Assembly: GCA_025449115.1 (NCBI GenBank)
Contig: JAHLKC010000005.1
Span: forward strand, 248,001-312,000
Direction of reading: 5' to 3'
Length of the DNA: 64,000 nt
Source: Chytridium lagenaria
Lineage: Eukaryota; Chytridiomycota; Chytridiomycetes; Chytridiales; Chytridiaceae
Below are positions 1-50,390 of the stretch, one piece after another (position 1 is the first letter of the stretch; every line of letters begins with the position of its first letter). Under the pieces are notes generated by a model that saw only the letters and a list, made by a program, of their open reading frames with translations, was not told the DNA's origin and did no database searches. Position numbers and translations under genes: made by a program.

Positions 1-677
1 TCTTCTTGTTCTTTCATCCTTCTTCTTGTCACCTTCTTCTTGCCCCACGTTTCTTGACGTCCTTCTGCTTGTCATTTTTCTTGCTGTACGGTTACCACGG
101 AGGTTCACGGTCGTTGTTTGCGGGGTTGACCTTTAAGCAGCCTAAAAAAAAATAGTTCGTTTAATACGATAAATAAGGGAATGAAGCTTACCAGCAGACG
201 CATAGATAGCTTCAATGGTGGGGTTGCGGCAACCTTCCCGCAAATGTTCTCGTGAGAGTTCTTCATGTAGAATTTCTGGTCACGACCGCAGTTGTATCTG
301 CAAATACAAGAGATGAGGAACCTAACTTGTAATGCATACCAGTATAACTCACCCATGAAATCCACGGATATCCCAGATCGCGTCATAAGCAAGACGTCCA
401 TCTTTCCTATAGCAAGGCATTAATAAGATATAAAAGAAGTGGGAGTGTTTTAAACTCCTTACTTGCTGCAAGCGTCTTTCACAACTTTGGGGAGATCACA
501 GGTGTCGAATCTTGTGAACCAGGTTCTGTATCTAATACCCCTCGTACAGCTTGTGGTGGTATTGGTAGAGGCGGTGACGGAGTTCCTGACGGTTCTCTTT
601 TTCTGGGCTTCGACCTGGACCGCGGTGAGGGAGAGCACCACCACGAGGGCAGCGAGGAGGACGTGGAGGAGACGCAT
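1..677 (-). CDS. Secreted six-cysteine protein with lysine-rich tail, copy A (partial at window edge)
   Basis: The start ATG at 677 opens a clear signal peptide: about 24 residues, with a hydrophobic core of Leu/Ala/Val ending in VEAQ. Exons read as 677-463, 406-353, 297-192 and 141 to beyond the window edge, all with GT/AG borders. The mature part has the family pattern CTRGIRYRTW, then FDTCD, then DAC, then KDGRLAYDAIWD, then NCGRDQ, then ENIC, then a last Cys after IEAIYASAG. The tail after the last exon border turns lysine-rich and runs off the left edge. Two one-base shifts are needed, one near 230 in exon 3 and one in the tail. The same domain and intron positions recur in copies B to E. 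Function is unknown; secretion is inferred from the signal peptide. Confidence 0.7.
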
Positions 678-1274
678 GTTATTGTCGCTCTACTTGAGCA
701 GTGTGTGATGAGGGACGAAGGCGAAGTGAAGTGCGATGGTCTCTCTCAAGATGAAAGAAGAGCAGCTTTCCTGCCTTTTGAGTTGAAAAGACTTTCTTTT
801 GATTGTTTCCTGACGGAATGATGAATGCAAGGAAGGTTCAGCTGTGACCCAGAATTCTGTCTGCGAGACACAATAATTTTTAGGTAAAAGACAACCCGAA
901 ATTGTCAGGAATCCAAACCAAGCCAAACCCAGTCTTTTCGGGTTGAGGAAAATGAGGTCTCATCAACAGCCAAACAGGCATTTTTGTGAATGAACGATGG
1001 TGTTTACTTTGATAGAAATTTGATTAATAAATAAATATTCGCTGCGTGTTCAAATGCGCGCAAGTTTATCGCGGAGAAAACAGGTATTTTATTGAAGACG
1101 TTAATAAAAATAGATTTAAAAATACAACAAAAAGTAATAATATGTAAAGTATCGGTCATTCGGTTGACAAAAGTTTAAAGCAACTCATGTAAAAAACGAA
1201 ACATCACGATACGCCCAAGAAAAAATGAGGGATGCGTTATGTAGTAGTGAATCCGTGATTATTGAAATAATCGT
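678..1274. other. Intergenic: upstream of copy A, downstream of copy B
   Basis: No gene is supported here. The right part (about 1000-1274) is AT-rich 3' flank of copy B and carries the conserved downstream element at 1201-1241. The left part must hold the promoter of copy A; I see no clear TATA box close to its ATG. Confidence 0.5.
1201..1241 (-). promoter_or_regulatory. Conserved element downstream of copy B stop codon
   Basis: Read on the plus strand the block begins CATCACGATACGC, continues through GAAAAAATGAGGG and ends TGCGTTATG. It lies about 35-75 bp after the stop codon of copy B. Near-identical blocks follow the stop codons of copy C (3343-3383) and copy D (6033-6074). On the transcribed strand ACGC and GCGT can pair around a loop containing TTTTTT. 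It is probably a 3' UTR or 3'-end-formation element; its role is inferred only from conservation. Confidence 0.5.
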
Positions 1275-2893
1275 TTAATCATCGTCCTCTGCCTTCTTAG
1301 CAGCCTTCTTCTTTGCGGCCTTCGGCTTCTTCTCATCATCCTCATCGTCCTTCTCCTTCTTCTCTTCCTTCTTAGCCCCCTTCTTCGGTTTCTTCTTTTC
1401 ATCATCATCCTCATCATCAACCTTCTTGGACCCTGACTTCTTCTTGGGTGCGACCTTCTTCTTTGCAGTCTTCTTGGGTGATTTGCCAGCGGGAGCTTTC
1501 TTCTTGTCAGCTTTCTTGGGCTTGTCCTCCTCGTCGTCGTCGTTGTCCTTCTTCTTGGTGATTCCCAGCGGGAGCTTTCTTCTTGTCAGCTTTCTTGGGC
1601 TTGTCCTCCTCGTCGTCGTCGTTGTCCTTCTTCTTTGCCACGGGTTTTTTCTCGACCTTGTTTGCCGTAACTTTGCCCTCCTCCTTCTCTCCCTTCTTTG
1701 AATCCTTTTCATCATCATCGCCATCTTCACCCTTCTTAGACCCTAACTTTTTCTTGGGTACGACCTTCTTCTTTGCAGTCTTCTTGGGTGATTTTCCAGC
1801 GGGAGCTTTCTTCTTTTCAGCTTTCTTGGGCTTGTCCTCCTCGTCGTCGTCGTTGTCCTTCTTCTTGGGTGATTTCCCAGCGGGAGCTTTCTTCTTGTCA
1901 GCTTTCTTGGGCTTGTCCTCCTCGTCGTCGTCGTTGTCCTTCTTCTTTGCCACGGGTTTTTTCTCGACCTTGTTTGCCTTAACTTTGCCCTCCTCCTTCT
2001 CTCCCTTCTTCGACTCCTTTTCATCATCGTCATCATCAGCAACCTTCTTCTTTTCACTCTTCTTGTCCTTGAGTCCCTTTCCAGCTGGGGCATTCTTAAT
2101 CTTCTTGGGCTTGTCGTCATTGTCGTCATCGTCGTCCTTAGCCACGGGTTTGTTGTCGAACTTCTTCACACCGTTCCTCATAGACCTTTTGCTGCCGGAG
2201 ACACGCCTGGGGCCTGCATTGGCGCTACATTCTACGTGTGGTGTTAGTACCTATTTCTAATCGAGTGATTGTGATAATATTAAAGGACAAGTATTTACTT
2301 GCAGCCGTGTAGAGACTGGTCACAGAACTCTTGACATTTTGGCAAAAGTTCGGAGGTACTTTGGCGTCACGTTTGCATACGTATCTGGAGCGATATTCGT
2401 TAGAATATTGTAACTTAATTCGTATTGAAACCGGCACATCTCAGGATTATAAGAGGGGAGGTGGGCCCAAAGAAGCAAACTCTCTAAGATAAGCTTACCC
2501 GTAATTCTTTCTGTTGTTAAAACCATCTGATAGGCCAAAGCATTTTTGCCCCTTTTTCGTGTAGTTAATATAAAACATTGTAAGAGAAAAAAGAAATATA
2601 TAGGAGAAACTGGGGATCTTTTCTATTTAACATCATGCAAACTCATTTTAACCTCGAACTGAGATCCCCAACCCCTTTCCCTTCCATAACATCAAAATAA
2701 CTTACTGCTTGCAGGCTTTGGTAACCTCTGACGGCATATCGCATACATCGTAGCGAAGAAATTTATCTCCATCTTTAATACCGACCCTGGTTCCCCTCCG
2801 GCAGTTTGCACCTGTGTCAAAGATTTTTGCGCCGACAAGACTGACGGACAGCACGAGCACTAAGAGTGCAGCGAGGTCGTGTATGGATCGCAT
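1275..2893 (-). CDS. Secreted six-cysteine protein with Lys/Asp-rich repeats, copy B
   Basis: The start at 2893 gives a signal peptide (MRSIHDLAALLVLVLSVSLVGA). Exon 1 ends near 2704 after CRRGTRV, RYDVCD and KAC. A short exon near 2550-2505 carries the ALAYQM segment. Exon 3 (about 2300) carries YVCKRD, NFC and SLYTAA, and exon 4 runs 231-1275 on the 2 kb side (from 2231 down), starting at KCSANAG. The rest is a charged, disordered tail: at least three repeats of about 30 residues with KKKDNDDDEEDKPKKADKKK followed by APAGKSPKK, plus linkers such as KKGEKEEGKVKANKVEKKP. The final residues are KKAEDDD. A two-base deletion near 1560, relative to the neighbouring repeat copies, shifts the frame; reading across it restores the repeat to the stop at 1275. 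The mixed Lys/Asp composition makes a polyampholyte. No known family is recognised. Confidence 0.7.
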
Positions 2894-3414
2894 GACGATG
2901 CTGATGTGGGGGTTGTCGACGACAATGCCAATGTTGTGTGAGTAAATAAAATATTATGTTTAAGATGGTGGTTGATTCAGCCGTCCCCAAGAAGCAAATG
3001 CTTTGAGTCAGACTCTTATTAACTTGAAAGACACAGGGATTGTCAGATTACTTGACAATACTTGTTTTAAGCTGCGCTTTTAGTTTTGTGGACATATAAA
3101 CAAATAATCCATTTTCAGAGATATTCATTAATATTTACGAAGGACATAACTAACAGAAACAGAAAATGCTCAGAGTACCAGTTTATTAAAGATTAACCTT
3201 ACAAAATATGTTGATTAAAGGGTTTAGTTGTTAAAAAACAAAACAAGACAAAAAACCTCTTTTATAATACGAAAAGACAAGACGAGTAAAGTACAATCAT
3301 CGGGTTACAACGATCTCGAAGAAATAAAACCATGAAAAAGAAACATCACGATGACGCGTAAGAAAAAATGAGGGGTACGTTAAGTGTTAATAGACCCGTG
3401 AGTACGACAATCGT
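2894..3414. other. Intergenic: upstream of copy B, downstream of copy C
   Basis: AT-rich, with no gene. It contains the conserved downstream element of copy C at 3343-3383 and must include the copy B promoter. I see no other structure. Confidence 0.5.
3343..3383 (-). promoter_or_regulatory. Conserved element downstream of copy C stop codon
   Basis: The plus-strand block starts CATCACGATGACGCG, then GAAAAAATGAGGGG, then TACGTTAA. It is the counterpart of the blocks at 1201-1241 and 6033-6074 and sits at a similar distance (about 30-70 bp) from the stop codon at 3415. The pairing arms are ACG and CGT. Confidence 0.5.
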
Positions 3415-5476
3415 TTAATCATCGTCCTCTGCCTTTTTAGCAACCTTCTTCGTAGCGGCCGCGGGCTTCTTCTCATCATCCTCATCCTCCTTCTCCTTCT
3501 TCTCTTCCTTCTTCGCCCCCTTCTTCTCTCCCTTCTTCGCTTCCTTCTTTTCATCATCGTCATCATCATCACCCTTCTTAGATTCTGACGTCTTCTTGGG
3601 TAACTTTCCAGCAGGGGACGTTTCGATATCGGTGGAACTCCCGGCACTGTTCTTCCTAGTGACAGACTTCATCGCCAGTCTCCCCCCTCCTTTTGCATAA
3701 GTAATGAGCCTGCGTTGCAAAAACCTCATCTCATCTTCAAGCTCTTGAAGACGGCTACTAGCAGTCTCTAACTTTATCTTGTCGCTATCTCTGCCAGTCC
3801 TTGCGAACAAGATTGTAAAGGCGTTGACTTGAATCTTTGCCTTGTCCAACTCTACCTTCAGCTTCAGAATCCTCTTACGGAGCTTAAAAATATTCTTGCT
3901 GGGCCGCGTTGTCGGGTGTTGATTTGGTCGAACGTTGGGAGGTCGATTGGCCCGGTTAAGAGGGGACGTTTCGATATCGGTGGAACTCCCGGCACTGTCC
4001 TCCTTAGCGACAGAATTCGTCGCCATGGTCCACCCTCCTCCCGTGATTGCACCTATGAGACTTTTTTTCAACTCATCCAGCTTTGCTGTGAGTTTTTCAA
4101 GACGAGTACGACGTTTTCTTAACTTAAATTCGGCGTAAGATTTAATCGAAGGATCGGCATTGAGTGCAATGATTTCGAGTGCCTTGATCTGACGCTTTAT
4201 ATCGTATACTCACTAATTCCGAACCTTTTTTACATGCGTTTACGGAGCCTTTTTTACACCGAGTTGCTGCCACCAGTTGGACGCTTAGTTGACGGAACAG
4301 ATTCGCGCCAATTCGTTTCGGACCATTCGTTTGACCGGCTGGTTAAGAGGGGACGTTTCGATATCCGTAGAGCTTCCGGCACGTTCTTCCTCGTGACAGA
4401 CTTCGTCCCCGCGGCCCACCCTGCCATGACTGCCTGTGCGAAACTTTTTTTCAACACCTCCAGCTCTTTTGTGAGCCCTTGAATATGAAGACGAAGAAGT
4501 TTAATTCTCATTAAGGCGTTCAATCTGATCGAAGGATAGGTCTCTGCCCTGATTTTTTGTTCCTCGATTTGACGGTTCTTCCCGTCTATCTGTTTCCGAA
4601 CCTTTTCCATGCTTTTACGGAGCCCATTTATACGAGGTGTTGCCAGAGTACCTGGACGCTTGTTGACGGCACGATTCGCGCCATTCGTTCGACCGGCCTG
4701 GTTAAGAGGAGACGTTTCGATATCGGTAGAGCTTCCGGCACCGTTGGCCTTTGAGCAAGCTATGACCAGAGTGTTAGGAGTTTTGGTAGAATGTAATAAA
4801 AGTAAAACCAAAATAGGTTGATGAATGTAAAATATTTACAAGAAAAATAGCTTACCGACTGCTTCGTAAAGTTTCCGTCACATTGGACTTTCCATTGACG
4901 ACGGTGCAGATGGTTTCCCAGCTGTTGCCGCGGAAGCGGAATTGGCGATGGCCGCAAACATATCTGTCGATGGTTGTTTAGAATCATTTAAACATATTTT
5001 TATAGTGAAACGAGGACAAGAGTACTACGCTTTTTCATAAAGCTTAAACCCTTTAACTTTGCTAAAGAAACTTACCCGTATCTCCTGTGGTTGTCCCAAA
5101 TCAAGTCATAGCCAGGCGGGCGTCAGCTCTTTGTCATTAAGGTTAAAACAAAATCATGTTAGAACTAATATCGTTAAAGGTTCAAGTTCTCTCGAACGTT
5201 ATGCAACGCGCCTAATGATAAGCACGTGCACACACAACGAAAAACCACCCCCTTAACATCTCAATCGCGCTCATAGAATCAAAACACTTACTTGCTGCAG
5301 GCTTTGAAGACCTCCAAGGGTAAATCGCAAACATCGTAGCGAGCTTCCCAAGACCTAGCCATAGTTCCCCGCTGGCAGTTTGAACCTACGCCAAAGACGA
5401 TTTTTGAGGCCACCGTGGCAAGGCTGACGGAGAGCACGAGCACCAGGAGTGCAGCGAGGTGATGTATGGATCGCAT
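3415..5476 (-). CDS. Secreted six-cysteine protein with coiled-coil and Lys/Asp-rich tail, copy C
   Basis: The signal peptide starts at 5476 (MRSIHHLAALLVLVLSVSLA) and is almost identical to copy D. Exon 1 has CQRGT, RYDVCD and KAC. Exon 2 (about 5140-5092) encodes the LAYDLIWDN segment but lacks one C relative to copy D, so it is shifted. Exon 3 (about 4960-4855) has YVCGHRQFRFRGNSWETIC. Exon 4 starts at 4759 with CSKANGAGS. The tail differs from copies B and D: a module made of GAGSSTDIETSPLN plus a basic alpha-helical, coiled-coil-like stretch (LRKSMEKVRKQIDGKNRQIE, LKVELDKAKIQ, LQELEDEMRFLQRR) recurs about every 370 bp. It ends in the shared KKAEDDD-type tail. Several one-base shifts interrupt exon 4 (for example near 4350 and 4230). 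Function unknown. Confidence 0.65.
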
Positions 5477-6104
5477 GATGCGCGATACTGATGAAAAAAA
5501 ATATGCTGTAGCTTATCGATCGCCGCGCCTTTTGCCGTGTAGGTGTGAGGGTCAGATGCAGACTGATACCGCGTTCGAGCAAAGGCTGGACAGGTTGAAT
5601 CATTAGAAGACACGGAAGTTGTCAGATTCCTGTGCGACAAATGTTTTGCTGTGTATATCGGTACGCTGGTATATTTCTAAAAAAGGTGTTTATGCCTACG
5701 TTAAAGAGCAATCTCGTTGTCGAGGAAAAAGGGTCATCCAAAGGGCAAGCTCTCAATCATTTGTTGCGTTCTCCTATAAAGCCTTCAACGGCAGTCTTTA
5801 TTTCTAAAGACACTTCTGATGTGAGTCAATACCTTTATGGCCTTTTAAAAAGTAACTTCAGTTAACATAAATATTCATAGTACCATTGTAATTGCTAGGA
5901 TAAAAAACATATTATTGGTCGGAGGGGTCAAATGATAAAACAAGCGTTCTGAAGGGAAAATAAGCAAGAAAATGAACAGAATAACCATCGGTTTACAAAA
6001 AAGTCTCTTAAAAGCACAATTATGAAAAAAGGACATCACGATAACGCTTTGGAAAAAATGAGGGGTGCGTTATGAAGTTAAACCCAAAACATAAAGGTTT
6101 CTAA
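5477..6104. other. Intergenic: upstream of copy C, downstream of copy D
   Basis: No gene is supported. Short open frames on the plus strand at 5619-5865 have no recognisable features. The conserved downstream element of copy D is at 6033-6074. Confidence 0.5.
6033..6074 (-). promoter_or_regulatory. Conserved element downstream of copy D stop codon
   Basis: Plus-strand CATCACGATAACGC, then GGAAAAAATGAGGGG, then TGCGTTATG. Here the arms TAACGC and GCGTTA are perfect inverted hexamers, giving the best stem-loop of the three copies. It lies about 30-70 bp past the stop at 6105. Confidence 0.5.
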
Positions 6105-7536
6105 TCATCGCTCTCTGCTCTTCTTAGCATCCTTCTTCTTGGACGCCCTTGGCTTTTTTCTCATCATCATCATCGTCCTTCTCCTTCTTCTCTTCCTTCT
6201 TAGCCCCCTTCTTCTCTCCCTTCTTCGCTTCCTTCTTTTCCTCGTCGTCACCATCTTCACCCTTAGTCGCATCCTTCTTCTTCTCAGTCTTCTTGGGTGC
6301 CTTTCCAGCGGGAGCCTTCTTCTTCTTGTCAGCCTTCTTGGGCTTGTCCTCCTCCTCGTCGTCATCGCCGCTCTTCTTTTTCGCAGCAACCACCTTCTTG
6401 CGACGGGTTTTTTCGCGGTCTTTTTCTTCTTCTCGGTCTTCTTTGCCACAGGCTTGCTTGCCTTCTTCTTCTCACCCTTCTTTCCTCTACAGCCTTCTTC
6501 TTCTCCTTCAATTTCTTTGCAGCAGCCTTCTTAACTTTCTGCATAAGCTTTTCATCTGCTTTCTAAGGTTTAACCATTTACGGGCCTTAGCAAGCGCTTT
6601 CTTGGCCGCATTACTGCCAGACTTTGCTCTCCTGATTTTGGCTTCCTTGAGCTTCTTCCGTGCTTCGGCCACCTTCTTGCTGAGCTCATCGTACTTTTTA
6701 CGGTCTGCGGGATTCATGTTTTTCTCGGCTGATTTGCGCATGTTGGCGGTACGGATAGCGCCACCCATCTGACGGGCTGCGGTGGTGGAATACGGTTTAT
6801 TGGTAGAGCCTGCAGCACCGTTGGCCTTTGAGCAAGCTATGTGACATATTAGAATCTTGCATGATGTTTTAAAGGAAAGATGTTGATGATGTACAAATAA
6901 CTTACAAACTGCTTCGTAAAGTTCTGTTACATTGGACAACTTTCCCTTCACGGTGGTGCAGATGGTCTCCCAGCTATTGCCGCGGTAGCGGAATTGGCGG
7001 CGGCCGCAAACATATCTGTCGATGGTTGTTTTAAGTAATCCAAACTTATTCTATGGTGAAACGGGACAAAAACTAAGAGGACGACGCTTTTTGATAAAGC
7101 TTAAGCTCCTATGCGAAAAGAGACTTACCCGTATCTCCGACGGTTGTCCCAAATCAGGTCATAGGCCAGACGCCTGTCAGTTCTTTTTTCGTAAAGGTTG
7201 AAGTACAAAGTCATGTTAGAGTTAAGTACCATTAGAGGAGAATCTAATGTTGAAGTTCCATTCAACGTCATGCAAAGCGCCTACTGCTAAGCACAAACAG
7301 GGAAAACTACCCCCTTAACGTTTCCCTCCCATAGAATCAAAAAAACTTACTTGTTGCAGGCTTTAGAAACTTCCAAGGGTACATCGCAAACATCGTAGCG
7401 AGCTTCCCAAGACCTGGCCATGGTTCCCCTCTGGCAGTTTGAACCTACGCCCAAAGACGATTTTTGAGGCCACCGTGGCAAGGCTGACGGAGAGCACGAG
7501 CACCAGGAGTGCAGCGAGGTGATGTATGGATCGCAT
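6105..7536 (-). CDS. Secreted six-cysteine protein with coiled-coil and Lys/Asp-rich tail, copy D
   Basis: The ATG at 7536 aligns with the start of copy C; an in-frame ATG at 7545 would add three residues. The signal peptide is near-identical to copy C. One extra G in a GGG run near 7450 shifts the frame relative to copy C, and removing it gives CQRGT and RYDVCD. Later exons encode RRLAYDLIWDNRRRYG (about 7175-7128), YVCGRRQFRYRGNSWETIC with VTELYEAVC (about 7018-6905), and from 6836 CSKANGAAGS. Next come a helical basic segment (DRKKYDELSKKVAEARKKLK), lysine-rich runs, and Lys/Asp blocks ending SRER. Copies C and D are recent duplicates over exons 1-3 with divergent tails. No known family recognised. 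Confidence 0.65.
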
Positions 7537-8691
7537 GATGCACAATGTTGATGAACTAAGCGGGGGAGGTTATCGACAGTGATGCCCGGCGGTGAGTGAT
7601 GTCGGCGTCTGGTATATAATATATAAAGTGTGATAGACACTTTAATTTTTCTTGGAATTGTCATATTTTCTGCGTGAGGCAAGCGATAATGCAGCCATGT
7701 GTTCTGTGAAGTGAAATAGTGCGTTGTAAATATGTGCATATGTGAAACGGGGTTTTAAATTCATTTATTTATTAGATTGTTAGCGTAATCCCAACTAGTT
7801 GTTGATGATGAATGCATGCAGCAGCAGTGGTGTTGTAAGTATACGAAAACAGAAACAAGCTGCATGCCCTCAATGGACAGCAAGCACTGTCTCGCGTGTC
7901 ATCATGGACGTGAGTAATACTCAAACGTACTTTAAAGTAATTTCCAGTGTACATGGATAGCACTTACCATAGTCAGTGTGTATCAATCAATCAATCAGGT
8001 ATTTATCTACATACAATTTCAAAAAGGACGTGTAAAAGTATAGGTACTCGAGGAGAGTGTCGTTCCTTCAACTTGTAAAGACACTTTTAGAAATAAACGA
8101 ATGCAGCCGCCCAAGAATTTAATGAAATTTGGACTTCAGATTTTCTACATAGAATTGTCACGAGTGAAATGAGAGTGAGACACATTTGTCCTTTTATTCC
8201 TCCTTTTGCCCTGCTCTCTGCTCTGCCCTGCCCTGGCTGAGGATATCAATTCCCATCGTGTCTCTCTTGCCTGCCTTCCTTACTACCTAAATACCTTTAT
8301 TGGATGGATGTCTCTTTAAAAAAATATTAAAATAATACTAGACGGTTTCTTTCCTCCATCCCCCATATCCTTTCCGTCGTCTTCCGTCTCCCATTCAGTC
8401 GTCGTCGTTCGTCGTCGTCGTCGATCATTCATTCATTCATACACCACATCCATCCATCCATCAACAACACTACACTCCTTCATCTGGTTGGCCTTTCAGA
8501 GTGGTGAGTTCTTATTCTCTATAGTCGTGTTCTACTACATTTCGTTTGTTTGGTGGTTGTCTACTTTGTCTGTCTTGCTGGAACACCACACTCATTCACC
8601 TTCTTCAAACAACTGCCACCGCCAATCACCTCATCTGGACCATCATCATCGTCATCACCGTGTACCATCATCAGACATCTGAGACTACAGA
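7537..8691. other. Divergent intergenic region between copies D and E
   Basis: 1.15 kb with no supported gene, presumably holding both promoters. Simple repeats occur at 7984-7996 (CAAT units) and at 8399-8462 (GTC, ATTC and ATCC units). A GT...AG pair at about 8501-8524 could be a short 5' UTR intron of gene E, but this is uncertain. Confidence 0.45.
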
Positions 8692-11600
8692 ATGAAGCCA
8701 TTCGCTTTATGGCTGGGCTTGGCCATTGCGGTCCTCGCCGTCTTCCTTTCCGGAAGCGTCGCAGCAGAACGAGCCGTAGCCCTCTCCAACTCCCCCCTCC
8801 GTGACTCTGACCTCGTCACCGACGCTGTCCTTTCAAAATCCGACCTTGTCGCCTCTGAACTCGCATCCGCCGACATCTCCTCCCTCCGTGCCGAAGCCGC
8901 CGCACCCAAGAAGAAGAAGAGCAAGGCTGAGAAGAAGGCCGAGAAGAAGAAGAAGAAGGCCGATAAGAAGAAAAGAAGAAGGCCAAGAAGGATAAGAAGA
9001 AGAAGGCGAAGAAGGACAAGAAGAAGAAGAAGAAGGCTGATAAGAAGAAGGCTAAGGCCATCATTCAGAAGGCTCTCAAGAGTTGAAGGACCTTCTGAGC
9101 AAGATGAAGGCGAACGCAAGAAGGCGGACTTTAAGAAGCTTCTGAAGAACCTTCGCAACAAGTACAAGAACAAGCTCTCTGCTAAGAAGTTCAAGAGCCT
9201 CATGAAGTCCATCCGCAAGCGTCTTCGAAAAGCCCAGAAAAAGTTGAAGGCCGCCAAGAAGTCAAAGAAAGGCAAGAAAGGATCCAAGAAGAACGCTAGC
9301 AAGAAGAAGGGCAAGAAGGGAAAGAAGGGCAAGGCTCCGAAGAAAGCGCCGTCCGTGCTTTCGGCAAAAAGCTCGCGAAGGGAAGAAAAGTGGTCTATGA
9401 AGGCTCTCATCGCTCGACTCCGCAAGCAGTTCGGATCTTTCCAAGAAGCAGTACAAGAAGATGGCCGCTCGTCTCCGTAAGCTGATCAAAAAACTTCGCA
9501 AGAAGGGCAAGAAGGGCAAGAAGGAAAGAAGGGCAAGGCCCCAAGAAAGCTGCTGTCCGTGCTTTCGGCAAGAAGCTTGCGAAGGGCAAGAAAAAGTGGA
9601 CGATGAAGGCTCTCATGCTCGACTCCGCAAGCGCAGTTCGGATCTTTCCAAGAAGCAGTACAAAAAGATGGCCGCTCGCCTCCGTAAGTTGATCAAAAAA
9701 CTTCGCAAGAAGGGCAAGAAGGGCAAGAAGGGAAAGAAGGGCAAGGCCCCAAGAAAGCTGCTGTCCGTGCTTTCGGCAAGAAGCTTGCGAAGGGCAAGAA
9801 AAAGTGGACGATGAAGGCTCTCATTGCTCGACTCCGCAAGCAGTTCGGATCTTTCCAAGAAGCAGTACAAAAAGATGGCCGCTCGTCTCCGTAAGCTGAT
9901 CAAAAAACTTCGCAAGAAGGGCAAGAAGGGAAAGAAGGGCAAGGCTCCAAGAAAGCTGCTGTCCGTGCTTTCGGCAAGAAGCTTGCGAAGGGCAAGAAAA
10001 AGTGGTCGATGAAGGCTCTCATGCCGACTCCGCAAGCGGTTCGCGGTCTTTCCAAGAAGCAGTACAGGAAGATGGCCACTCGTCTCCGTAAGCTTATCAG
10101 AAACTTCGCATGAAGGCCAAGAAGGCAAGAAGGGCAAGAAGGCAAGAAGGCCAAGAAGGCGAAGAAGGGAAAGAAGGGCAAGGCCCCAAGAAAGCCGCCG
10201 TCCGTGCTTTCGGCAAAAGCTTGCCAAGGGCAAGAAGAAGTGGTCGATGAAGGCTCTCATTGCTCGTCTCCGCAAGCGGTTCGCGGATCTTTCCAAGAAG
10301 CAGTACAGGAAGATGGCCGCTCGTCTCCGTAAGCTTATCAGAAAACTTCGCATGAAGGCCAAGAAGGGCAAGAAGGGCAAGAAGGTCAAGAAGGGCAAGA
10401 AACCCTCCAAAAAACAACGTCGTGCTATCGCCAAGCGTCTTGCTGACAGTTCGGTGAAGAAAATCTCCTTAAAGTCCATCATGTCTACTCCGCAAGAGGT
10501 TCCCCGGTCTCACGCGTCGTAGGTACCGCAGAATCGCCCGCAAGATCCGCGGCATGGCACGTCGCATCCGTCTCGCGAGGAAGGCCAAGAAGGCAGGCAA
10601 GAAGCTCAAGAAGGGTGCAAAGAAGGCAGGCAAGAAGATCAAGAAGAGCGCCAAGAAGGCTAGCAAGAAGGCTAAGAAGGGCCTTAAGAAGGCTAAGAAG
10701 GGGCTCAAGAAGGCTGGTAAGAAGATCAAGAAGGCTGGCAAGAAGGCCAAGAAGGCTCTTCAGGACCGTCGCGCGAAGCTTCGTGCGGCACTCAGGCACC
10801 TCGCTAAGAAGTACAGGAAGGGCCCCAAGGTCACCCTTGAGAACATCGTTGCGTTTTGAAAAAGAGAGTGCAGGGTCTTACAGAGCGTCAGTACAAGCGC
10901 CTTGCTCGTCGTATTCGTCGCAAGCTCGAGAAGATTCGTACCGCAAACCGCCGCAAGATCCGTATTATCCGTCGCAAGCTGCGTGGTGGCAGGAAGTTTG
11001 GACCTATCAGCGCCAAAGACAAGGCCATCATCCGTACCTTCCTCAAAGAACTTATGACTGGTAAATTTAAGGGCGTGAAGATCAATCTTTTGATGGTCAC
11101 ACGTGAACTCAGGAACCGTCTTCAATGGACCAGGAAGAGGACTAGGAGGATCGCGAGACGTATTGTGAGGAAGATTAAGAGGACTCTTAACAGGGCCGCT
11201 AGGAGGCAGAAGAGACTCAACAGGAGAAAGTCTGCTCTAAGGGCTGCCAGTACATCTACCTGTAAGAACGGAAAGAGCCTTACAACCTGGGGACGCAAGT
11301 ACAACGCCTGTGATGTTTCGTTGTCGCTGCCGGCGCGTGCAAGGGGTATGTTACAGTCTTTTAGCTAGTCTTTCAGCCTTAAAATCATACATCCTAAACT
11401 CGTTTTTTTTTGCAGTGATCTGAAGGACACCAAGCTCGCTCTCGACTCTTTCTACATGTCCGCTACCTCCCTCGGCTTCTCCTGCCCTGCTGATCGCAAA
11501 CCCGAACTCGCTAAAAGCATCTGCAAGAAAGTCGGTAAGGCCAGACTCGCCCTTAAGCAAGCCAGCATCAGCCCCGACAAGAACCCCAACGCTGTCACTC

Positions 11601-12802
11601 TCCTAGCTTACAAGTCTCTTGGTGAGTCACCCTTATCCCCCCATCTATGTCGATAAAATTTTAACCCGCCCCTTTTTTCAGGTTGCAAACGCTCTAAGGT
11701 TGGCAAAGACGAGGCTGCTTTCACTCCTGGGTCCAGCACCCCTCCCAAGGATGTCAAGAAGCCCGCTGCCGATGATGCCAAGAAGCCCGCTGCTGAAGAG
11801 TCCGCTGCCGCCCCTAAGGAGAGGAGAAGCGTTGACGATGACGATGATGAGAAGCCTAAGAAGAAGGATGTCAAGAAGGATAAGAAGAAGGATAAGAAGA
11901 AGCCTAAGAAGAAGAATAAGGTGAAGAAGGCTAGCAAGAAGTCCAAGAAGGCCGATGATGATGATGAAGAGGACAAGCCTAAGAAGAAGGTTACTAAGAA
12001 GAGCAAGAAGAGCAAGAAGGGTGGAAAGAAGGACAAGAAGGCTGGAAAGAAGCCTGAAAAGAAGGTTCGAAAGAAGACGGCCAAGGGTAAGAACCGTAAG
12101 ACCCCAGCCGGTAAGAAACCCACTTCCACCAAGAAGTCCACCAAAAAGTCCACCAAGAAGCCCGCCCCCAAGCGTTCTGGCCCAAAAACTCTGTCACCGT
12201 CGTTAAAGGATCCGCTGGAAAGAACGCCACCGCCAACGCTACTAGACCCAAGAACCGCTTCAACCTTGTCCGTGCTACCAAGAACTTCGACTCCAAGAAT
12301 GTCATTTCTAACTGTAAGCGTGGAACCAAAGTTAAGACCTGGGGTGTCGAATACGATGCTTGTGACTTTGTGGTCGAGGCTGTCAAGAAATGCAAGAGCA
12401 AGGACGGACGTTTCGCTTACGACAGTATGTGGGATTCGAGGAAGGCTATTGGGTGTGATTGTGGACCTTCGGTAAGTGTTCTCATGGGCTTCTTTTTTTT
12501 TTATCACTTTTCTAACTCCTCTATGCAGCAATACTTCTACAAAGCTTTATCGTGGGAAAACTACTGCCCTAGACTCCACACCGTCATGGCGGGTATGAAC
12601 GACACCAACCCCGCTACCGCCGGAAAGACCTACAACCCCTTGGAGTACTGCGTTGCGTTAGGTTTGTACTTTCTCACTTTTCCCATGACGCTTTACCAAT
12701 TTATTGACTCGCTTTCTTTCTTTAGGTTGCGAAGACCCTACAAAGAAGGTTGTCGCCTCCACCAACGCCTCTAAGAAAAACAAGGCGTCCGGCAAGAAGT
12801 AA
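8692..12802 (+). CDS. Large secreted lysine-repeat protein with two six-cysteine domains, copy E
   Basis: The ATG at 8692 starts a signal peptide (MKPFALWLGLAIAVLAVF). About 800 residues of Lys/Arg/Ala/Gly-rich sequence follow, including five tandem units of about 200 bp (9340-10480; each has a GKAPKKA and AVRAFGKKL part, then ALIARLRK and KKQYKKMAARLRKLIKKLRKK). A KKAGKKIKK-type stretch follows (10560-10760). Cysteine domain 1 spans about 11255-11690 (CKNGKSLTTW, YNACD, GFSC, SICKKV, YKSLGC). Domain 2 spans about 12310-12730 (CKRGTKVKTW, YDACD, KKC, GRFAYDSMWD, CDCG, YC, YCVALGC). A Lys/Asp-rich linker separates them. Introns: 11347-11415, about 11621-11681, 12471-12527 and about 12661-12724. 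Several one-base shifts occur in the repeats and one near 12185. The stop is at 12800-12802. Confidence 0.7.
9340..10480 (+). repeat. Tandem ~200-bp coding repeats in gene E
   Basis: The word GTCCGTGCTTTCGGCAA recurs at about 9351, 9555, 9763, 9961 and 10200, giving unit lengths of 204, 208, 198 and 239 bp. Each unit encodes a basic amphipathic helix segment and a KKGKKGKKGK stretch. Unit-to-unit length differences that are not multiples of three break the reading frame between copies. Confidence 0.8.
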
Positions 12803-14438: not shown

Positions 14439-14769
14439 ATGAAAGTCGCAAACTTCTTCTACATCCTTTCGTGGGCTCTCGCAGCTACAACCACATCCGC
14501 CTCCCCTCTCACCAACGATCTCTCGCTCTCCCGTCGCGGCAACGCCATGTCCGGAGCCAAAGCCTCCTTCCAAAACGCCGGACTAGCCGTCGCTGCCAAA
14601 AGGCCACGAATGCAACACGGCCGCAAGGCATCTCATCTCTGGTTCTAGTGCATGTTGCCCTGCCTACCAATCGTGCATTTCAACTCGAAGGGATGCGATG
14701 GCGTGTGGGAAGGAGTATAATACCTGTAAGGCGACGCATAAAGGTGCTGGGGCAGCTGTAGAGCGTTGA
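14439..14769 (+). CDS. Small secreted cysteine-rich protein
   Basis: The ATG at 14439 follows TATA-like sequence at about 14318-14337. The signal peptide is MKVANFFYILSWALAATTTS, cleaved near ASP. The open frame breaks at an AAAA run near 14600. Shifting one base there gives KGHECNTAARHLISGSSACC, then QSC, MACG and YNTC, ending AAVER with seven cysteines in about 55 residues. A second one-base shift near the stop would add a further segment with one more Cys (HGSDCADPTK). Its size, secretion signal and cysteine density resemble fungal small secreted proteins or effectors. No family is recognised, and it does not share the pattern of copies A to E. Confidence 0.5.
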
Positions 14770-16061
14770 GAAGGGCAAAACTCACGGGAGCGATTGCGCG
14801 GATCCGACAAAGGCGGCGACACCGGAGGGAGGGCGTGTTGTCCGGCACGGGCTTCGTGTCTTAAAAAGTCAAAGACTGCTGTGGCGATGAGGGAGTGTGA
14901 ATCTGGTTTTGTGCAATGCCTTGGTCGAAATGGAGCCTGAGAGGGCGTTGGGTTCTACGATGCATTTATGTTTATTTGCCATTTCAGTTCTTTGTATTAA
15001 AGTTAGTGAAGAATACTCATTTGCTTTTTAATAAAACGTATCCTGTCTGAAGTTCCAAGTGTACCCTTTGATTTTCGTTCTTTTCTAGGGATCTGATCCA
15101 ACATCGGCATGCTTGGAAAGAGGAGAGTGTAAAATAATTTATATGAGGCTGTACCTAAATGGGATCGAATACCTTCGGAACAGGAATATGAGGAAATTCC
15201 CGTCTGTATGTGTCCAGTCCACTTTGCGCAAAGGATGGTTATAACACGATATCTTGCCGCGTATGATGCAAAAGGTGCCATCCGCCTAACATTCACAAGT
15301 TTGATGTGAGCCTGTTTTTACTCGGAAAAATAAAATAGAAATATTTAGTTAGTTGGCAGCACACGCATGTAAAAGAGGTTTAGGATTGACGGCGAGGAGT
15401 TATCAAATCTCAACAGCAAGACAGTTTTGGCAGGAATCCAACATAATGACTCAGTCTGCCACGTATCCAAATCTTAATAAAGAAAATGGAGATGAGCACT
15501 CCCGGAAGCTATTCTATTGCCCTACAGAGCCCCTGTCCAAACACTCAAGGAGGGCTCCGATAGTGTGAAACGATCGGTAGCACTGGTCTCTATGATAGGG
15601 TCCGTAGTGTCTTTTGGCACAGCAACCCAGTAACCTGAGAATGTGTTGTCGTCACAAAAGGGATTGATAGCTGCATGTCCGAACATATCTGCCTCTGATT
15701 TAATTTAATCATCTTTTATAGCCGCACAACAAAAGGCCAAGGTTGATTCCAGATCTGTCTACCTATATTGACGGGCCCAGGCCTCATCATCGAGAAGGAA
15801 TCATATAAAAACAAGAAATATATGATACACGTTTGTAAAAACTGAGACTGAACAGTCGAGTGTTATTAATGCGCGTGTATGTCACTCTCTCTGTGGCTAA
15901 CTTTTACAGAATTTTTCGCTCATTATATCACAAAGGGGTTGGGGACGGTATGCCGAAGTCGCCAGCACACCTTATTAGACTTTTCACTGCACCGGATGAA
16001 TACACGTCCTCGAAATAATTTTTTACACACTCATAATGTTTACTACATATTTAACACCATT
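14770..16061. other. Intergenic, nothing recognised
   Basis: About 1.3 kb. Open frames on either strand here (15003-15296, 15353-15568, 15879-16175) have no start context, domains or composition that supports a gene. Confidence 0.4.
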
Positions 16062-32912: not shown

Positions 32913-35346
32913 TCACTCTACGATGAGCCTGCTGTCATCGGTAGGACACAGATATTGCGTCTCCAAGATATCGTACGGAACTCGGGAGGTTCGGGGAACG
33001 AAAAGATTGTTCCTATACATAAGAAAAGAAAAAGGAAAATGAGCAAAAACGAGAAACGAGATGGTGAAAAGAAAGAAAAAAAGAATTGGAAAAAGCGAAA
33101 AGCGAGGAAAGAAAAGAAAGATGGAAACGAATGTACTGAAAAGAAAGACGCCATGGACCAAAAAGAAAATGTCGCAATAGTAACTCACCATAATCCTCTC
33201 GCTATAGCATCATGCGAGCTCTTTGTTGGATGGAAACAATCCAACCCCGACAGCAAACTCCTAATCCCTCCACCCTTATTAGCAGCGGTCACAAGATCCA
33301 ACCCTCCCATCCCTGGATCAAACAAAACGCCAAACCCAGGATCCCTTTCGGCATTAATCTCATTCACAACCTTCTCCGCAACCCTTGCATATCCAGCCGC
33401 AAGCACATCCATCGCATCCCTCCCCTCTTGATTCTGCGCACACCCGCATAACGATAGAATGGAGGTGACTCTTTTGCAGTACGAGTTGGCTTCTTGCAGA
33501 GGTTTAAGTTGGGAGAGTTTAAAGGGGGTGAAGACGACGGCGACAGTGTCGCGGAGAGAGGATTGCATGGCACGAAGCATTTTTCGGAGGTTGTTCTCGT
33601 AATGATCCACTCCAAACACAAGTTTTTGTGCCCAATCCTTACATCCTGTGCAGAGATCATTGAACCCCAATTCCACGATCGCAAGTTTATACCGTCTCGG
33701 TGCAGTGCTGTTATGCGGGATAGGTGGCTTAGGCGCAGGTTTCGGTTTACTAGCGCCACCCCCAGGTTCACGACGAGACAATGTGGTGAAATCCAATGCT
33801 GCGTCATCGTTTTTCATCGGTCCTGATTTCCCCATGCGGCGTTTCCATGATGCGGTGATGTTGCCGCGACGGAGTTGATCGTCATCTTCGGAACCATAGT
33901 GCTCTTGCCGGAGGTATTGGGCGGACGGGCATTGAGAGGAAAGAGGGTCGACGGTGGTGAGGTAGTCGTTGAGGTAGTCGACCATTCCACCCCAGTTGAC
34001 GGTCCAGGCGCCGGATTGGGCAGAGTTGAGGCCTTGAACTTCGACATTGTCGGGTTGAAGGAAGGTACGAGCTGTGCAGATGGCTTTGGGGATGTTTTAA
34101 ATTAATTTCATTGACAAGATGTCTAGGAGAGGTGTGAATGGTCACTTACGGCCCCAGCATATATGAAAGTTCATGGTGCCTTTGGAAACTCCCGTGAGTT
34201 CAGGGTGTACCGTTTAAGGAGGTTGGCGACAGACTTGGAATCGGCTTCACCCCCTGTCGCAAAGTTTACACCACGGTATTCCCATAACGGGTTCATTTTG
34301 AACGACAAGAAATCTTTGATTGATCCAACTTTTGCAGCGAAACCGGCCATGATCGAGTCTCCAACGCCCATGATAACCTGAAAGATGTTAGGAGAGAGAC
34401 GGGAGAAAAGAGAATTTTACATCAATATCGTCGACACGAAGATCCCAAACGGATGTAGCGGGTTTGTTCCTGGGGTTCAAAGCAGGACATTGCGCAATGT
34501 CCGTACGCTTTACCATGGGTGCAGAGGTGGTTGCGGTGGGAATGCTGATGGTGCTGGAGGTTGTGCCATAAACTACTGTGGAGGTTGTGACAACGGCCTT
34601 TGAAGATGTTGAAGAACCGCCGTCATTTTTGGTGGTGGTGGTGGTGGTGGTGGTGGTGGTGGTGGTGTGGTGAGGGGAAGGAGATGGGTGGTAGCCTCCA
34701 TCGGTATTCCTACGAGAGGTAGTGGAAGTGTGGCGAGGTGAGGGAGATGGGTGGTAACCTCCGTCATCGTTTTTGCGGGATGTGGTAGTATGACGAGGAG
34801 AAGGTGAAGGGTGGTAGCCTCCATCTCCGTTCCTACGAGTGCTGGTGGTAGAAATGTGAACAGTTTGAGAAGAAGAGTGAGCACTGTAATGAGTGGTGGT
34901 GGATAAATGCGATCCAGAACTTGATTTTAAAGACGAAGATGACAGAGGAGAAGAAGATGGAACATAGGGAGGATATCCATCCGTCACAGTGGGTTTTGGG
35001 ATATTCGGGTACGAAGGTCCATCATCGTAAATGGAGGAAGGTGAAGGCGATGGTGAGGCCTTGACACAAGGCTTTGTTGCAACCTTTGCATCGTTCACTG
35101 CCTGCAATGGCTCACCAGCACCTGCAGCAAACTTGCCACCAGATGCTTGCAGCTTTGAAAGATTAATGGCGGGGGCAGCGTTTATATCGTCGACGGGGAG
35201 ATCCAAAGTGACTTTAAGCTTTTGCTCAATCTCATCAAGGAATGGAAAGTTGGGATGCGCAGGAGCAGGAAGCAGGGATAGAGTCGACAGATATAGCCAT
35301 GAGGGAGGTGATGAGCATGCAGCTCAAGGTTGCCCTTGACAGCCAT
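32913..35346 (-). CDS. SGNH/GDSL hydrolase, phospholipase B1-like, secreted, copy 1
   Basis: Probable secreted lipase/phospholipase B. The ATG at 35346 (or 35318, MLITSLMAISVDSIPAS) gives a hydrophobic N-terminus; one frameshift near 35270 joins it to HPNFPFLDEIEQKLKVTLDL. A Ser/Thr/Pro/His-rich linker (35.1-34.5 kb) has repeats of GDGGYHPSPSPRHT and a poly-Thr run encoded by GGT units. The catalytic domain has block I GVGDSIMAGF (nucleophile Ser), WEYRGVNFATGG, the Gly-x-Asn-Asp block VELGFNDLCTGC, and the Asp-x-x-His pair in GLDCFHPTKSSHD. The last exon ends at 32913 and encodes WNNLFVPRTS, matching the LWNN element of animal phospholipase B. Introns interrupt near 34385, 34160-34090 and 33180-33010. 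A paralogue lies just upstream (36139-37625). Confidence 0.8.
34625..34672. repeat. (GGT)n microsatellite coding for poly-Thr
   Basis: About 13 GGT/GGTG units inside the linker of lipase copy 1; on the coding strand they read as consecutive Thr codons. Length variation between strains is likely. Confidence 0.7.
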
Positions 35347-36138: not shown

Positions 36139-37625
36139 CTAGTCGATACGAATGCGCGACGCGTCAGAGGGACACCTAATGTCTCTCTTATTCACGTCAT
36201 AATTACCACGCTGCGACAATGGAAGCATCAGATTACTCCTGTTTGTATGTATTAGTGCATCTATTTCAATACCAACATACACTTTATCAACTCACCAGAT
36301 GTTTCCCGCAATAAGATCGTGGGCAGTCTTTGATGGATGGAAGCAGTCCAGCTGCGACAAAAACTCATCCGCCGTCCCCTTTGCAATATTGATACCGGCA
36401 AATCCAGGATCAAACGCAACCGCAAAGTTCGGATCTCTTAACGCGTTCATTTCAGCCGCAACCTTTTTCGCCCTTTCCACATAATGCGCCGCAAGCTCGT
36501 CCATCCTCTTTCGGGTATTCGCAGCGTTCAAACATAAACACTCAATAAACAGCACTTTTCTTGCGACGCTGCAGTAGGGACTTGCGCTTGTGATGGCTTC
36601 AATTTGGGACATGTTGAACGGGGTGACGAGGGAGACGACGACCTTTGGGATGTTGCTGCGAATGGACAGGAGGAGGTTGCGGATGTTTTCTTCATATTTG
36701 TCGGCCTCGAAAATGAGATTTTGGGACCAGCCTGTGCATCCCAAGCAGAGATCGTTAAAGCCAAGAGCGAGCATGAGGAGTTTATAGTCTCCGGCGTCGG
36801 TGTAGGCAACGGGGTTTACTTTGATCAGGTGGTCTTTAAAGTAGTTGACTTGGTTGGCCAGTTTGCTACCCAGGCTCCGGACTCGGCAGCATTAAGGCCT
36901 TGAACGGGGACGTTGTCGGGGAGAGGAGGGCAGATGGCTGTGTCATGCAGTTAGAATCGAAACGAATCAATCCTATCGTAAACAGTGGTACTCACGTCCA
37001 TAGCAAAAGTTGAATAGACGGGTTCCCTTGGAAAGACCCTTGACATCCGGATTGAATGCTTTGATAAGATTTCCCATGACTTGGAGTCTCCATCACCACC
37101 GTGCAAAGTTCACTCCACTTTAAAAAGATGTCAATTACTCATCACCAAACTAGCCAAATTCATCAGCAGCATCTCACCGATACTCTTTCAACGGATTCGA
37201 CATCACAAGCTGCGACGGTTCCGTGATCCTCGATCCAAACCCGGACATGACCGAATCACCCACCCCATCACAGTCTACACACATAGGAAAAAGGGCATCA
37301 GTTCACTATACCGGGAAGAGTTTTCTCACCTTAATATCATCCATCCTCAAATCCCAAACAGACTGAGGCGGCAAAGCCCTGGGTTCAACTTGGGACATTT
37401 AGAAATATCAGACACGGTCTGCGTTGGGATGGGAACGCTGGTGTTGGCTGTTGCGGATCCCGTGGCAGTTGGAAGGGTGGCCGATGAATTGATAATAGCA
37501 GTTGGAATGACTGGGAAGATGCCTCTCTTTTCGAGATCAACGGGTTTTGCATGAACGGAAGTAAGGAGTGCAGCGACGGCTGCAGCTGTGAGGAAGAGAG
37601 ACATCTTCATGGTTGTCGATGACAA
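36139..37625 (-). CDS. SGNH/GDSL hydrolase, phospholipase B1-like, secreted, copy 2 (several frame breaks)
   Basis: The ATG at 37625 starts a signal peptide (MKMSLFLTAAAVAALLTSVH). A shorter linker than copy 1 follows, then ISKCPKLNP. One missing C near 37383 shifts the frame; correcting it gives SVWDLRMDDIK as in copy 1. Then come GVGDSVMSGF (block I Ser), a GVNFA exon with two shifts near 37110-37075, DNVPVQGLNAAESGAW with a shift near 36855, ALGFNDLCLGC, and DCFHPSKTAHD (Asp/His). The last exon (36240-36139) encodes SNLMLPLSQRGNYDV and ends RIRID. It is shorter than copy 1 because it lacks the His/Pro/Ser linker repeats. At least four breaks; all motifs are present once they are bridged. 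Confidence 0.75.
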
Positions 37626-42513: not shown

Positions 42514-44408
42514 TTAACAAGTGATCTCGTAGACGGCGGTGGATCCAGAAACCTCGTTTCCGACCAGCAAAAGCGGGTTACCCGTCGGGCTCTCACTCTC
42601 ATAAACAAAGTCCATCCCCTCAGGTCCGAGGTCACCCTGCTTCTTGATTTCAGCATCCCACTTCCTGAGGTTAAGGTACTGAAGAAGGACAGGCTTGGTG
42701 ATATCAGAGATATCATACATCAAGATCCCAGACTGTCTTTCGAGACCGACGAAAACAAGCGGCGTCTTCCCGATTTTTCCAACCTTAAGAACCTCCACCT
42801 CGGGTCCCTTGTTGTCAGATCTCGTGTCAAAGCTCTTGGCCTCATCGTGACCAGAGTTGAAGTGGAGCGGTTCCGCAGTAGCAGTCACGTTCTCAATCTG
42901 ATCGGCAGAGTCAAAAACTGAGCGCCGGTAAGGGCGTCCCCAGATACTGAAGGAACGACCACCATAGGCGTGGAGAGTGTGGAAGATCTTGGTGCCGTTA
43001 ACCAAGTCGAAACCGTCGTCGTTGGAGACTGTAAGACGAGCGAGACCCTTGATCTCTTCAGGGGTGAAGAGGGTGGTGTTGAGCTTCAGCGCACTGACGC
43101 GGGACTCGTCGTTAAATGCCTTCCAACCACGGCCGTCACCCTCGTTCGCGGTGAAGATGTATTGGCCGATGGTCTTGTTACATTCGCCCTTTCCTCATAG
43201 TAGGCAATAGTGTCGGGCTAATAAAAAGTATATAAGAAAGGAGAACAAAGAGAAGCATGGGCGAAAACAACAATTAAAACGCACCATGTACATGCCAACA
43301 ACGTGCTTCCAGGGCTTAATATCAATCTTTCCATCCCTGTCAGAGACATCGAGACCGTTACCTGGGAGAGAGTGGTCTTTCAGACCAAGAGGGAAAATCT
43401 TATCAACAGTAGCGCTTGCGATATCGACAATGGCAAGTCCGTTGTTCTCCTGAAGGGAAACCCAGGCAGTCTTGGAGTCGGAGGAAATAGCAATATACTC
43501 GGGCTCAATGTCCTGAGCGACGGTGGTGGGCTTGGAAGAGATACGAAGGCCGACTGGCTTGTTGGCACCGTTGAATTTTTTGAAGTCGGCAACTTTGAAG
43601 GACTATTCGGATAGCAAGTTTAGCAATGATAAATTTCAATAACATAGGCAATATAAAGTAACTCACAGCATTGTCAACACCCTTAGATATGTCCGATGAT
43701 CGCGATGCCACCCTCGGGGTCGACTGAGTAATCATCATAGGCTCACCCTCGCAGGGAGCAAGAACCCAGCTTAAAAGTTACAAAACAAAATTCGTAAGTA
43801 AAAAGGGTATTAAAGTAGAGCGAAGCAAAGGTAAGCAGAGTCATGATCATCTACTTACTTTCCATCGGGAGAGAAGACGACACTGTCAGGCTGCGAGCAG
43901 ACCTGAACGGATTTTACAAATTTGGGGGTTCCTTCAAGGCTCCAGAACTCAATGTATCCAGGGTCAGTCTTGAGCACACCCTCAACAGCGACGGGCAGCA
44001 AGGTCGCCAAAGACGTCGACAGAGTTGATTGAGTTGGGACCTTTGGCAAAGTTGGCGCTAAAGTTGCCGACCTTGACGACGTTGGATGGGACAGAGATGT
44101 CGATTATCTGGAGGGAATGGAAAACAATCAGCGATTGCAACATGATGCATGGGTGGCATGTAACTCACGTCGATGGTCTTGTTCTCGGCGTTGGTGACGA
44201 GGACATGCTGACGGTTTTTATCGTACGAGATGATCTCAGAAGCGCCGACACCAAAGAGCCCGCTTTCGTATCCACCAACTCTTGTCATTTTAGGGGTTGA
44301 CGTGCAGACCTTGGCCGTGCTGCGAGGCCTGATGAGAGGAGCAGCATCCACGGTGAATATAGCAGCAGCAGTAATAGCCGCAAGTAGGATAGTAGGCGAT
44401 GAAGGCAT
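42514..44408 (-). CDS. Secreted choice-of-anchor-I type beta-propeller protein
   Basis: The ATG at 44408 gives a signal peptide (MPSSPTILLAAITAAAIF). The mature protein reads as repeated beta-propeller blades: YDKNRQHVLVTNAENKTIDV, SVDVFGDLAA, QPDSVVFSPDGK, EPEYIAISSDSKTAWVSLQE, and the hallmark C-terminus GPEGMDFVYESES and LLLVGNEVSGSTAVYEI. This family (choice-of-anchor I; related to animal mesenchyme-specific cell surface glycoproteins) is extracellular with unknown ligand. Introns lie at about 44168-44112, 43857-43770, 43670-43605 and 43285-43218. One-base shifts near 43985, 43730 and 43690 interrupt VAVEG and DDYSVDPEGG. It ends at 42514. Confidence 0.75.
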
Positions 44409-49193: not shown

Positions 49194-50390
49194 CGCCATT
49201 CATAAATTTAAACGCGTATAGTACGCGCTTGTATTATAAAATCAATTGAAAATCGTTTATTGATTTCAGGGCAGCAAGCCCTTGGTTGCTCAATTATCTG
49301 CCTCTCTTGAAAGCATCTACCACTATACCCCATCGAGTCCGTCATGTCGTGAACTCGGGCCAAAATAGACGGGCCAATTTGTGCGTGTTTGAGACTTCGC
49401 CAAAAAAAAAAAAAAACAAACAATTCTGTTGCACTGTGGATTCCAAAAACAACAATTCTGTTATGTGCACTGTGGATTCAAGTTGTTTTTGAAAAAAGAG
49501 GTCCAACGCTGGAATCGCAAGTCTCATCGCATCCTCACCGTCTCTCAACATCCATCCGTCTTTCAGCAATGTCCTTAACTTCCATCAAGAAACTCTTTTG
49601 GAAGGTAAACCCCTCCCAAATCTTCTCTTAAAGATCCTATAGAAAAAGACCCCTCCCCATCTCAAGTCCCCATCATCGCACCTCCCACGTTCGACAGATA
49701 CAGATATCAGGCCATCACCGCTTATTACCGAGAACAGTTCAGAGGTCTCACTTTACACAATATCTTCAACCCAAGGTCTACAAGAGATTTGATGCCATTC
49801 AGTCGGTGTAAGGTGGGGGAATCTTTTGTTGGTGTTATACTAACGTTGGATAGGCGGACGCAACTCACACCGTCAAAGAAGCGTTGGAACCTGTCATCCC
49901 CGTGAGACCACTCATTTGTGATATGTTTGATGACGATGACACTTGTTCCGAATCATTCGACCCTCCTCCAAAACTTGATCCCTCACACCGTCAATACCGC
50001 GTTGCACTCAATTTGGGATCAATCAACTCCACCTCCTTTTCGTCAACCGAAACCGCTTTACTGAAGTCTGATCCCTCACACCGTCAATACCGCGTTGCAT
50101 TGCGTCAAAAACCCTCACCTCCCTCACATCCAATCACCGGCATTTCGGGAGTCAACTCCACGTCCTCTCCATCAGCCGAAACCGCTTTTATGAAACCTAA
50201 TCCCACACACCGTCAATACCGCGTTGCACTCAATTTGGGATCTATCAACTCCACCTCCTCTTCATCAACCGAAACCGCCTTTCCAAATTCTGATCCCTCA
50301 CACCGTCAATACCGCGTTACATTACGTCAAAAACCAACATCTTCTTCTATCCCAATATCGGGAATCAACTCCACGCCTACTCCATCAGCC
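47465..50390. repeat. Segmental duplication, copy 1
   Basis: Nearly identical (by eye above 95% over most of its length) to 54229-57045, same orientation. It covers the 3' part of the Sel1 gene and most of the repeat-peptide gene. Differences are mainly one-base gains or losses and one missing peptide-repeat unit. Confidence 0.9.

Follow-up and report, generated by a model that had tools for sequence, protein, structure and literature searches.

Five adjacent genes of the freshwater chytrid Chytridium lagenaria encode proteins that combine a hydrophobic leader, a six-cysteine domain and strongly charged tails or repeats. The domain is under purifying selection and matches nothing in the databases searched, and it apparently defines a lineage-specific family that is locally duplicated, with all detected copies at one locus. 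The genes, here called A to E, lie in a window of 64,000 nucleotides (bases 248001-312000 of a 530,921-base contig; the genome comprises 41.9 Mb in 356 contigs). A sequenced strain of this species is Arg66 (PMC9993110), and forms growing on the green alga Oedogonium have been likened to C. lagenaria in print (PMC10470594).

Genes A, B, C and D are arranged in tandem on the minus strand, and gene E lies on the plus strand, head-to-head with D. Together they hold six copies of the domain, one in each of A to D and two, E1 and E2, in E. Gene A (1..677; exons 677-463, 406-353, 297-192 and 141 to the window edge) encodes a leader, the domain and a Lys/Arg tail, and extends approximately 250-280 bases beyond the left edge of the window into the adjoining locus, L009. 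Gene B (1275..2893; exons 2893-2706, ~2555-2499, 2384-2299 and 2231-1275), in which exon 2 has an uncertain acceptor and a frame break, finishes in a Lys/Asp polyampholyte tail with the end KKAEDDD. The tail of gene C (3415..5476; exons 5476-5292, 5128-5076, 4963-4856 and 4759-3415) consists of repeated segments followed by a polyampholyte stretch with the end KKAEDDD, and that of gene D (6105..7536; exons 7536-7351, 7182-7129, 7015-6906 and 6836-~6105) of a predicted basic helical hairpin ahead of its polyampholyte end. Gene E (8692..12802) runs from a leader through cationic helical repeats, E1 and a Lys/Asp linker to E2, and given its many frame breaks we infer that it is a single gene of roughly 1,300 amino acids. 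E1 (11243..11710, plus strand) has introns at 11346-11415 and 11622-11681 and one frame break near Cys2, and E2 (12298..12802, plus strand) has three exons that are open throughout (introns 12472-12528 and 12662-12725) and a short Lys-rich C-terminus. An N-terminal hydrophobic leader is present in each gene; judged by eye, those of A, B, C and E start with a short basic n-region, continue in a long hydrophobic core and finish with small residues, and that of D lies in a different frame from its domain.

The six-cysteine domain and its identity

The domain follows the pattern Cys1-x-R-G-T, Y-D-x-Cys2-D, K-A-Cys3, L-A-Y-D-x-x-W-D, Cys4-G, I/Y-Cys5, Tyr, Cys6, from which single copies deviate. 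Ten columns are invariant across all six copies, the six cysteines together with G, D, G and Y; no His or Ser is invariant. In leave-one-out profile scoring, with C and D withheld jointly, the copies reached 84.3 (A), 83.8 (D), 77.0 (E2), 74.2 (C), 58.5 (B) and 31.6 bits (E1), values that lean upward because the copies were spliced by us with the homology in view. None of 2000 shuffles per copy equalled the real score, the best shuffle of any set reaching 13.4 bits (1968-1997 of each 2000 were scored). Translated whole-genome searches, which match unspliced exons and are independent of our choice of target splicing, linked A to the exon of E2 at 3.1e-11, the best link obtained. The D query found E2 (4.6e-10), B (6.2e-5) and A (0.0025), and the E2 query found C (2.5e-4) and D (8.6e-4). 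E1 is the weakest and most diverged copy; it was absent from the results of the A, D and E2 searches and is placed in the family by its profile score and its introns.

Three intron positions are common to A to D: one follows Cys3 and one precedes Cys4, both in phase 2, and the last precedes Cys6, in phase 1. E1 has the first and third of these, E2 has the third together with an intron of its own after Cys4, and a phase-1 intron therefore stands directly before the Cys6 codon in all six copies. Two public models in the protein database (nr), both C. lagenaria hypothetical proteins, match exons of A (BC829DRAFT_380695, here P0001) and D (BC829DRAFT_221282, here P0002) in sequence. They join exons 1-3 of A and exons 1-4 of D as in our splicing, with exon 2 of D beginning two to three codons earlier than we had first typed it. 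The model P0001 diverges from the homologous reading past the frame break in exon 3 of A, and P0002 has no leader because a frame break in exon 1 of D separates the leader from the domain. The initial annotation had proposed both a shared six-cysteine domain and three common intron positions in A to D; the leave-one-out scores and cross-copy genome matches bear out the former, and reading of the exons the latter.

When a profile of all six copies was run over the 1993 open stretches of the window, 13 matched at E<=1, all inside the cluster; as the profile contains the copies, this shows only the absence of further matches in the window. Adjoining E, at 14440-14943, is a secreted-looking Cys-rich gene with the leader MKVANFFYILSWALAATTTSAS and two CC-doublet stretches, which is frame-broken and is not listed by the domain profile. 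Whole-genome searches with E2, A, D and the basic stretch of E gave matches only at the cluster, and since they score the best candidates only and missed the known copy E1, diverged copies elsewhere could escape them. A 21-base box is found in the 3' flanks of B (1219..1239; sense strand TAACGNANCCCTCATTTTTTC), C (3362..3382) and D (6052..6072), in each case on the minus strand. At up to 2 mismatches these are its only three occurrences in the genome, and a reversed control gave none; it could be an element of the 3' UTR or a remnant of duplication.

Single-sequence hmmscan against Pfam-A gave no match at the curated cut-off for the six domain copies, P0001, P0002 or the B tail, C tail, E basic and E1 stretches. 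The best sub-threshold rows were HOCHOB (E 0.2, in one of the six copies), New_glue (15.1 of 31 bits, covering residues 1-44 of P0001, mostly leader) and TipAS (16.0 of 23.8 bits, covering the helical tail of P0002). There was no match at cut-off in NCBIfam and no credible match in a PDB sequence search. At E<=10, nr searches with 49 and 4153 candidates returned only the cluster's own P0001 and P0002, and no relative in another species; these searches need shared 5-residue words and are therefore of low sensitivity, so that distant relatives in other chytrids could escape. Within the Pfam, NCBIfam, PDB and nr searches, the earlier suggestion of an undescribed family is thus supported. Fungi commonly have secreted Cys-rich families that are specific to a lineage, and an unmatched domain of this sort does not amount to a new kind of system.

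Two groups of known secreted proteins were considered and set aside. Oomycete elicitins are secreted, mainly helical and have six cysteines, with a different cysteine spacing and no known Lys-rich tails. Pfam holds an elicitin profile, and no elicitin row appeared in the hmmscan, although very remote kinship could escape a single-sequence search. The CFEM, hydrophobin and CBM18 proteins are secreted Cys-rich proteins of the fungal surface or wall with eight cysteines each; here six are invariant, and no such Pfam row was obtained.

AlphaFold2 models, from alignments of 10 or 11 rows that were mostly exon fragments, had a mean pLDDT of 76.9 for P0001 (pTM 0.41) and 69.8 for P0002 (pTM 0.42). 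The fold prediction proposed with the initial annotation thus gave an outline of the head, two short strands and then five helices in both models, and no clear fold match. A search with the models found no convincing solved or viral structure, which, with alignments this shallow, does not imply a new fold.

Charged tails and a possible function

A and E are polycations, whereas B to D end in polyampholytes. The tail of A is almost wholly Lys/Arg, and P0001 has a net charge of +43 over 187 residues. For its tail, AlphaFold2 predicts a single long helix (residues 136-184; block pLDDT 82-99), although predictors may be overconfident about isolated helices in charged sequence. The tail stretch of B (224 residues, the last of which lie past a frame break) contains 71 K, 36 D and 23 E, a charged fraction of 0.60. 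Net charges of the polyampholyte stretches of B, C and D are +17 of 224, +11 of 201 and +2 of 89 residues, and three stretches of E, of 78, 101 and 153 residues, carry +33, +45 and +51.

The cationic repeats of E form a tandem array of five helical units by anchor (9389..10400, plus strand; the end of the last unit was set by us), for which Tandem Repeats Finder gives a period of 207 bases and 4.1 copies. Start-to-start spacings are 206, 208, 198 and 238 bases. The second-helix motif occurs at eight places, with copies beyond the array at 9175, 10509 and 10877. The tails had been annotated as disordered; they are strongly charged, as that description held, but those of A and D are predicted to be partly helical and E has helical repeats.

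We tentatively favour a reading in which these proteins are secreted and form a coat or adhesive of polyelectrolytes that is specific to the lineage. The six cysteines would form three disulphides in a small head of a hairpin plus helices, and this head could anchor or multimerise the protein. Extracellularly, the tails would bind polyanions, whether acids of the algal wall or mucilage, the wall of the fungus itself or nucleic acids, and would also bind one another; an electrostatic coat or adhesive might then form on the algal substrate, enclosing the encysted cell or thallus. Six conserved cysteines and a leader, in the absence of any invariant His or Ser, suggest a stable extracellular head that is structural rather than catalytic, and the encoding of polycationic and polyampholytic tails side by side suggests electrostatic binding and assembly. 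Adhesion, coating of the wall or cyst and polyanion binding would all be compatible with the charge pattern. Against a coat or adhesive, no polyacidic partner is seen in the cluster, and charged low-complexity tails are also known in intracellular proteins, for example those of the nucleolus. In addition, the searches gave no relative from another species in which the architecture would be conserved, and some of the frame-broken copies may be dead.

Alternatively, the proteins might be secreted cationic agents: the amphipathic basic helices of E, like the Lys/Arg tails, would target membranes or nucleic acids, whether bacterial, of competitors or of the algal host, and the cysteine head would serve as carrier or anchor. 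We consider this unlikely. It agrees with the very high net positive charge and with the strong amphipathicity of four helices of E, second or late ones picked by eye (hydrophobic moments 0.67, 0.68, 0.82 and 1.01; 0.0-1.5% of 5000 shuffles as high); the basic part of P0002 is also fairly high (2.2%). However, the three first helices of E (27-35% of shuffles as high) and the tail of P0001 (15%) are no more amphipathic than shuffles, the repeat block of E is the most frame-broken part, and B to D end in polyampholytes, which are unusual for lytic peptides.

Frame breaks in the assembled genes

In the assembly, none of the five genes has an uninterrupted reading frame. The initial annotation did not report this; its account of five neighbouring genes with hydrophobic leaders, six domain copies and Lys- or Lys/Asp-rich tails otherwise stands. 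Frame breaks are located in exon 3 of A, in exon 2 and the tail of B, in exons 2 and 3 and the tail of C, in exon 1 (at the junction of leader and domain) and the tail of D, and at many sites in E.

Comparison of C with D gives identities of 95, 83 and 88% for exons 1-3, against 77, 77 and 57% for the introns and 77% for the start of exon 4, which encodes the tail. The combined C-D dN/dS is 0.20 over 81 in-frame codons. Piecewise values, from four comparisons of intact pieces (between C and D, or between B and either of them), are 0.11, 0.19, 0.23 and 0.25, and a fifth piece, the C-D leader, has zero changes. Exons 1-3 of C and D differ by one triplet indel, which keeps the frame, and by three single-base indels, each of which lies in a short homopolymer.

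These data bear on whether the cluster is decaying, with the breaks as real mutations and most copies as pseudogenes. Each of the five genes does have at least one break, and the public models either leave the homologous reading after a break (P0001) or start late (P0002). In addition, units 0-2 of E have a two-base gap in common and units 0-3 a run that is one base short; such shared indels point away from random sequencing error, which would not yield them. Yet the low dN/dS in the four piecewise comparisons, the better conservation of domain exons than of introns and the position of the one-base C-D exon indels in homopolymers all argue against decay, which we regard as unlikely. Uncorrected assembly indels are clearly favoured, although the shared indels of E keep the matter in play.

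The window also contains a near-identical 2.5-kb duplication (47465-50002 and 54229-56738), which is unrelated to the cluster and includes a repeat-rich open frame. By blastn its copies differ by 23 mismatches and 49 gap openings, whereas global alignment counts 60 substitutions against 33 indels, of which 23 are single bases and 15 of these fall in homopolymers, indicating that the indel excess depends on the aligner. Indel-rich by blastn, this duplication likewise speaks against decay, and it would fit an unpolished long-read assembly. For charged, repetitive genes that are frame-broken in the assembly, the consequence is that two public models are off, one of them without its leader.

Known systems and neighbouring genes

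Sandcastle-worm glue is described in one report as made of polybasic, polyacidic and ampholytic proteins, and the cluster resembles, by description, the cement proteins Pc1-Pc5, in which secreted proteins of polycationic and ampholytic kinds are made together, as would be the case here (PMC11277488). The cement proteins use DOPA and phosphoserine chemistry. To our knowledge, the cement proteins have no six-cysteine head. Complex-coacervate adhesives are made of secreted partner proteins of opposite charge; in the cluster there are polycations (A and E) and polyampholytic tails (B to D), and no polyacidic partner is seen. That these genes supply the chief components of an underwater glue of fungal origin, with the two kinds of secreted protein and a shared head that could cure by disulphide exchange, and that a single chytrid lineage invented it as a means of attachment to algae, strikes us as rather improbable.

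Mycobacterial heparin-binding haemagglutinin, a bacterial protein, has Lys-rich C-terminal repeats and no known cysteine head. The likeness to this adhesin is again one of description, its repeats being reported to bind heparin (PMC3293801). An intracellular role (nucleolar, DNA-binding or ER-resident), with the leader as a signal anchor or misread, is very unlikely: Lys-rich disordered regions are reported to abound in nucleolar snoRNPs (PMC11528048), but the signal-peptide-like leaders of A, B, C and E, as judged by eye, count against it and the six conserved cysteines fit an oxidising compartment. As regards the favoured coat or adhesive, one account names the proteins and carbohydrates of chytrid parasite adhesion as an open question (PMC10512372); chytrids of algae must stick under water, and the cluster provides a concrete candidate for adhesion.

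To the left of the cluster, in L009, lie an ankyrin-like repeat gene with 28-residue units (1-509) and an MsrA-like gene at about 5900-6650, both named by eye. Elsewhere in the window, an open frame at 58502-59134 resembles, by eye, a retroelement tyrosine recombinase and has no Pfam match. Two GDSL lipase matches on the minus strand (33188-34096 and 36295-36891) flank a Ser/Thr/Pro-rich open frame at 34388-35323. A Choice-of-anchor I domain is matched at 42517-43194 (E 5.6e-36).
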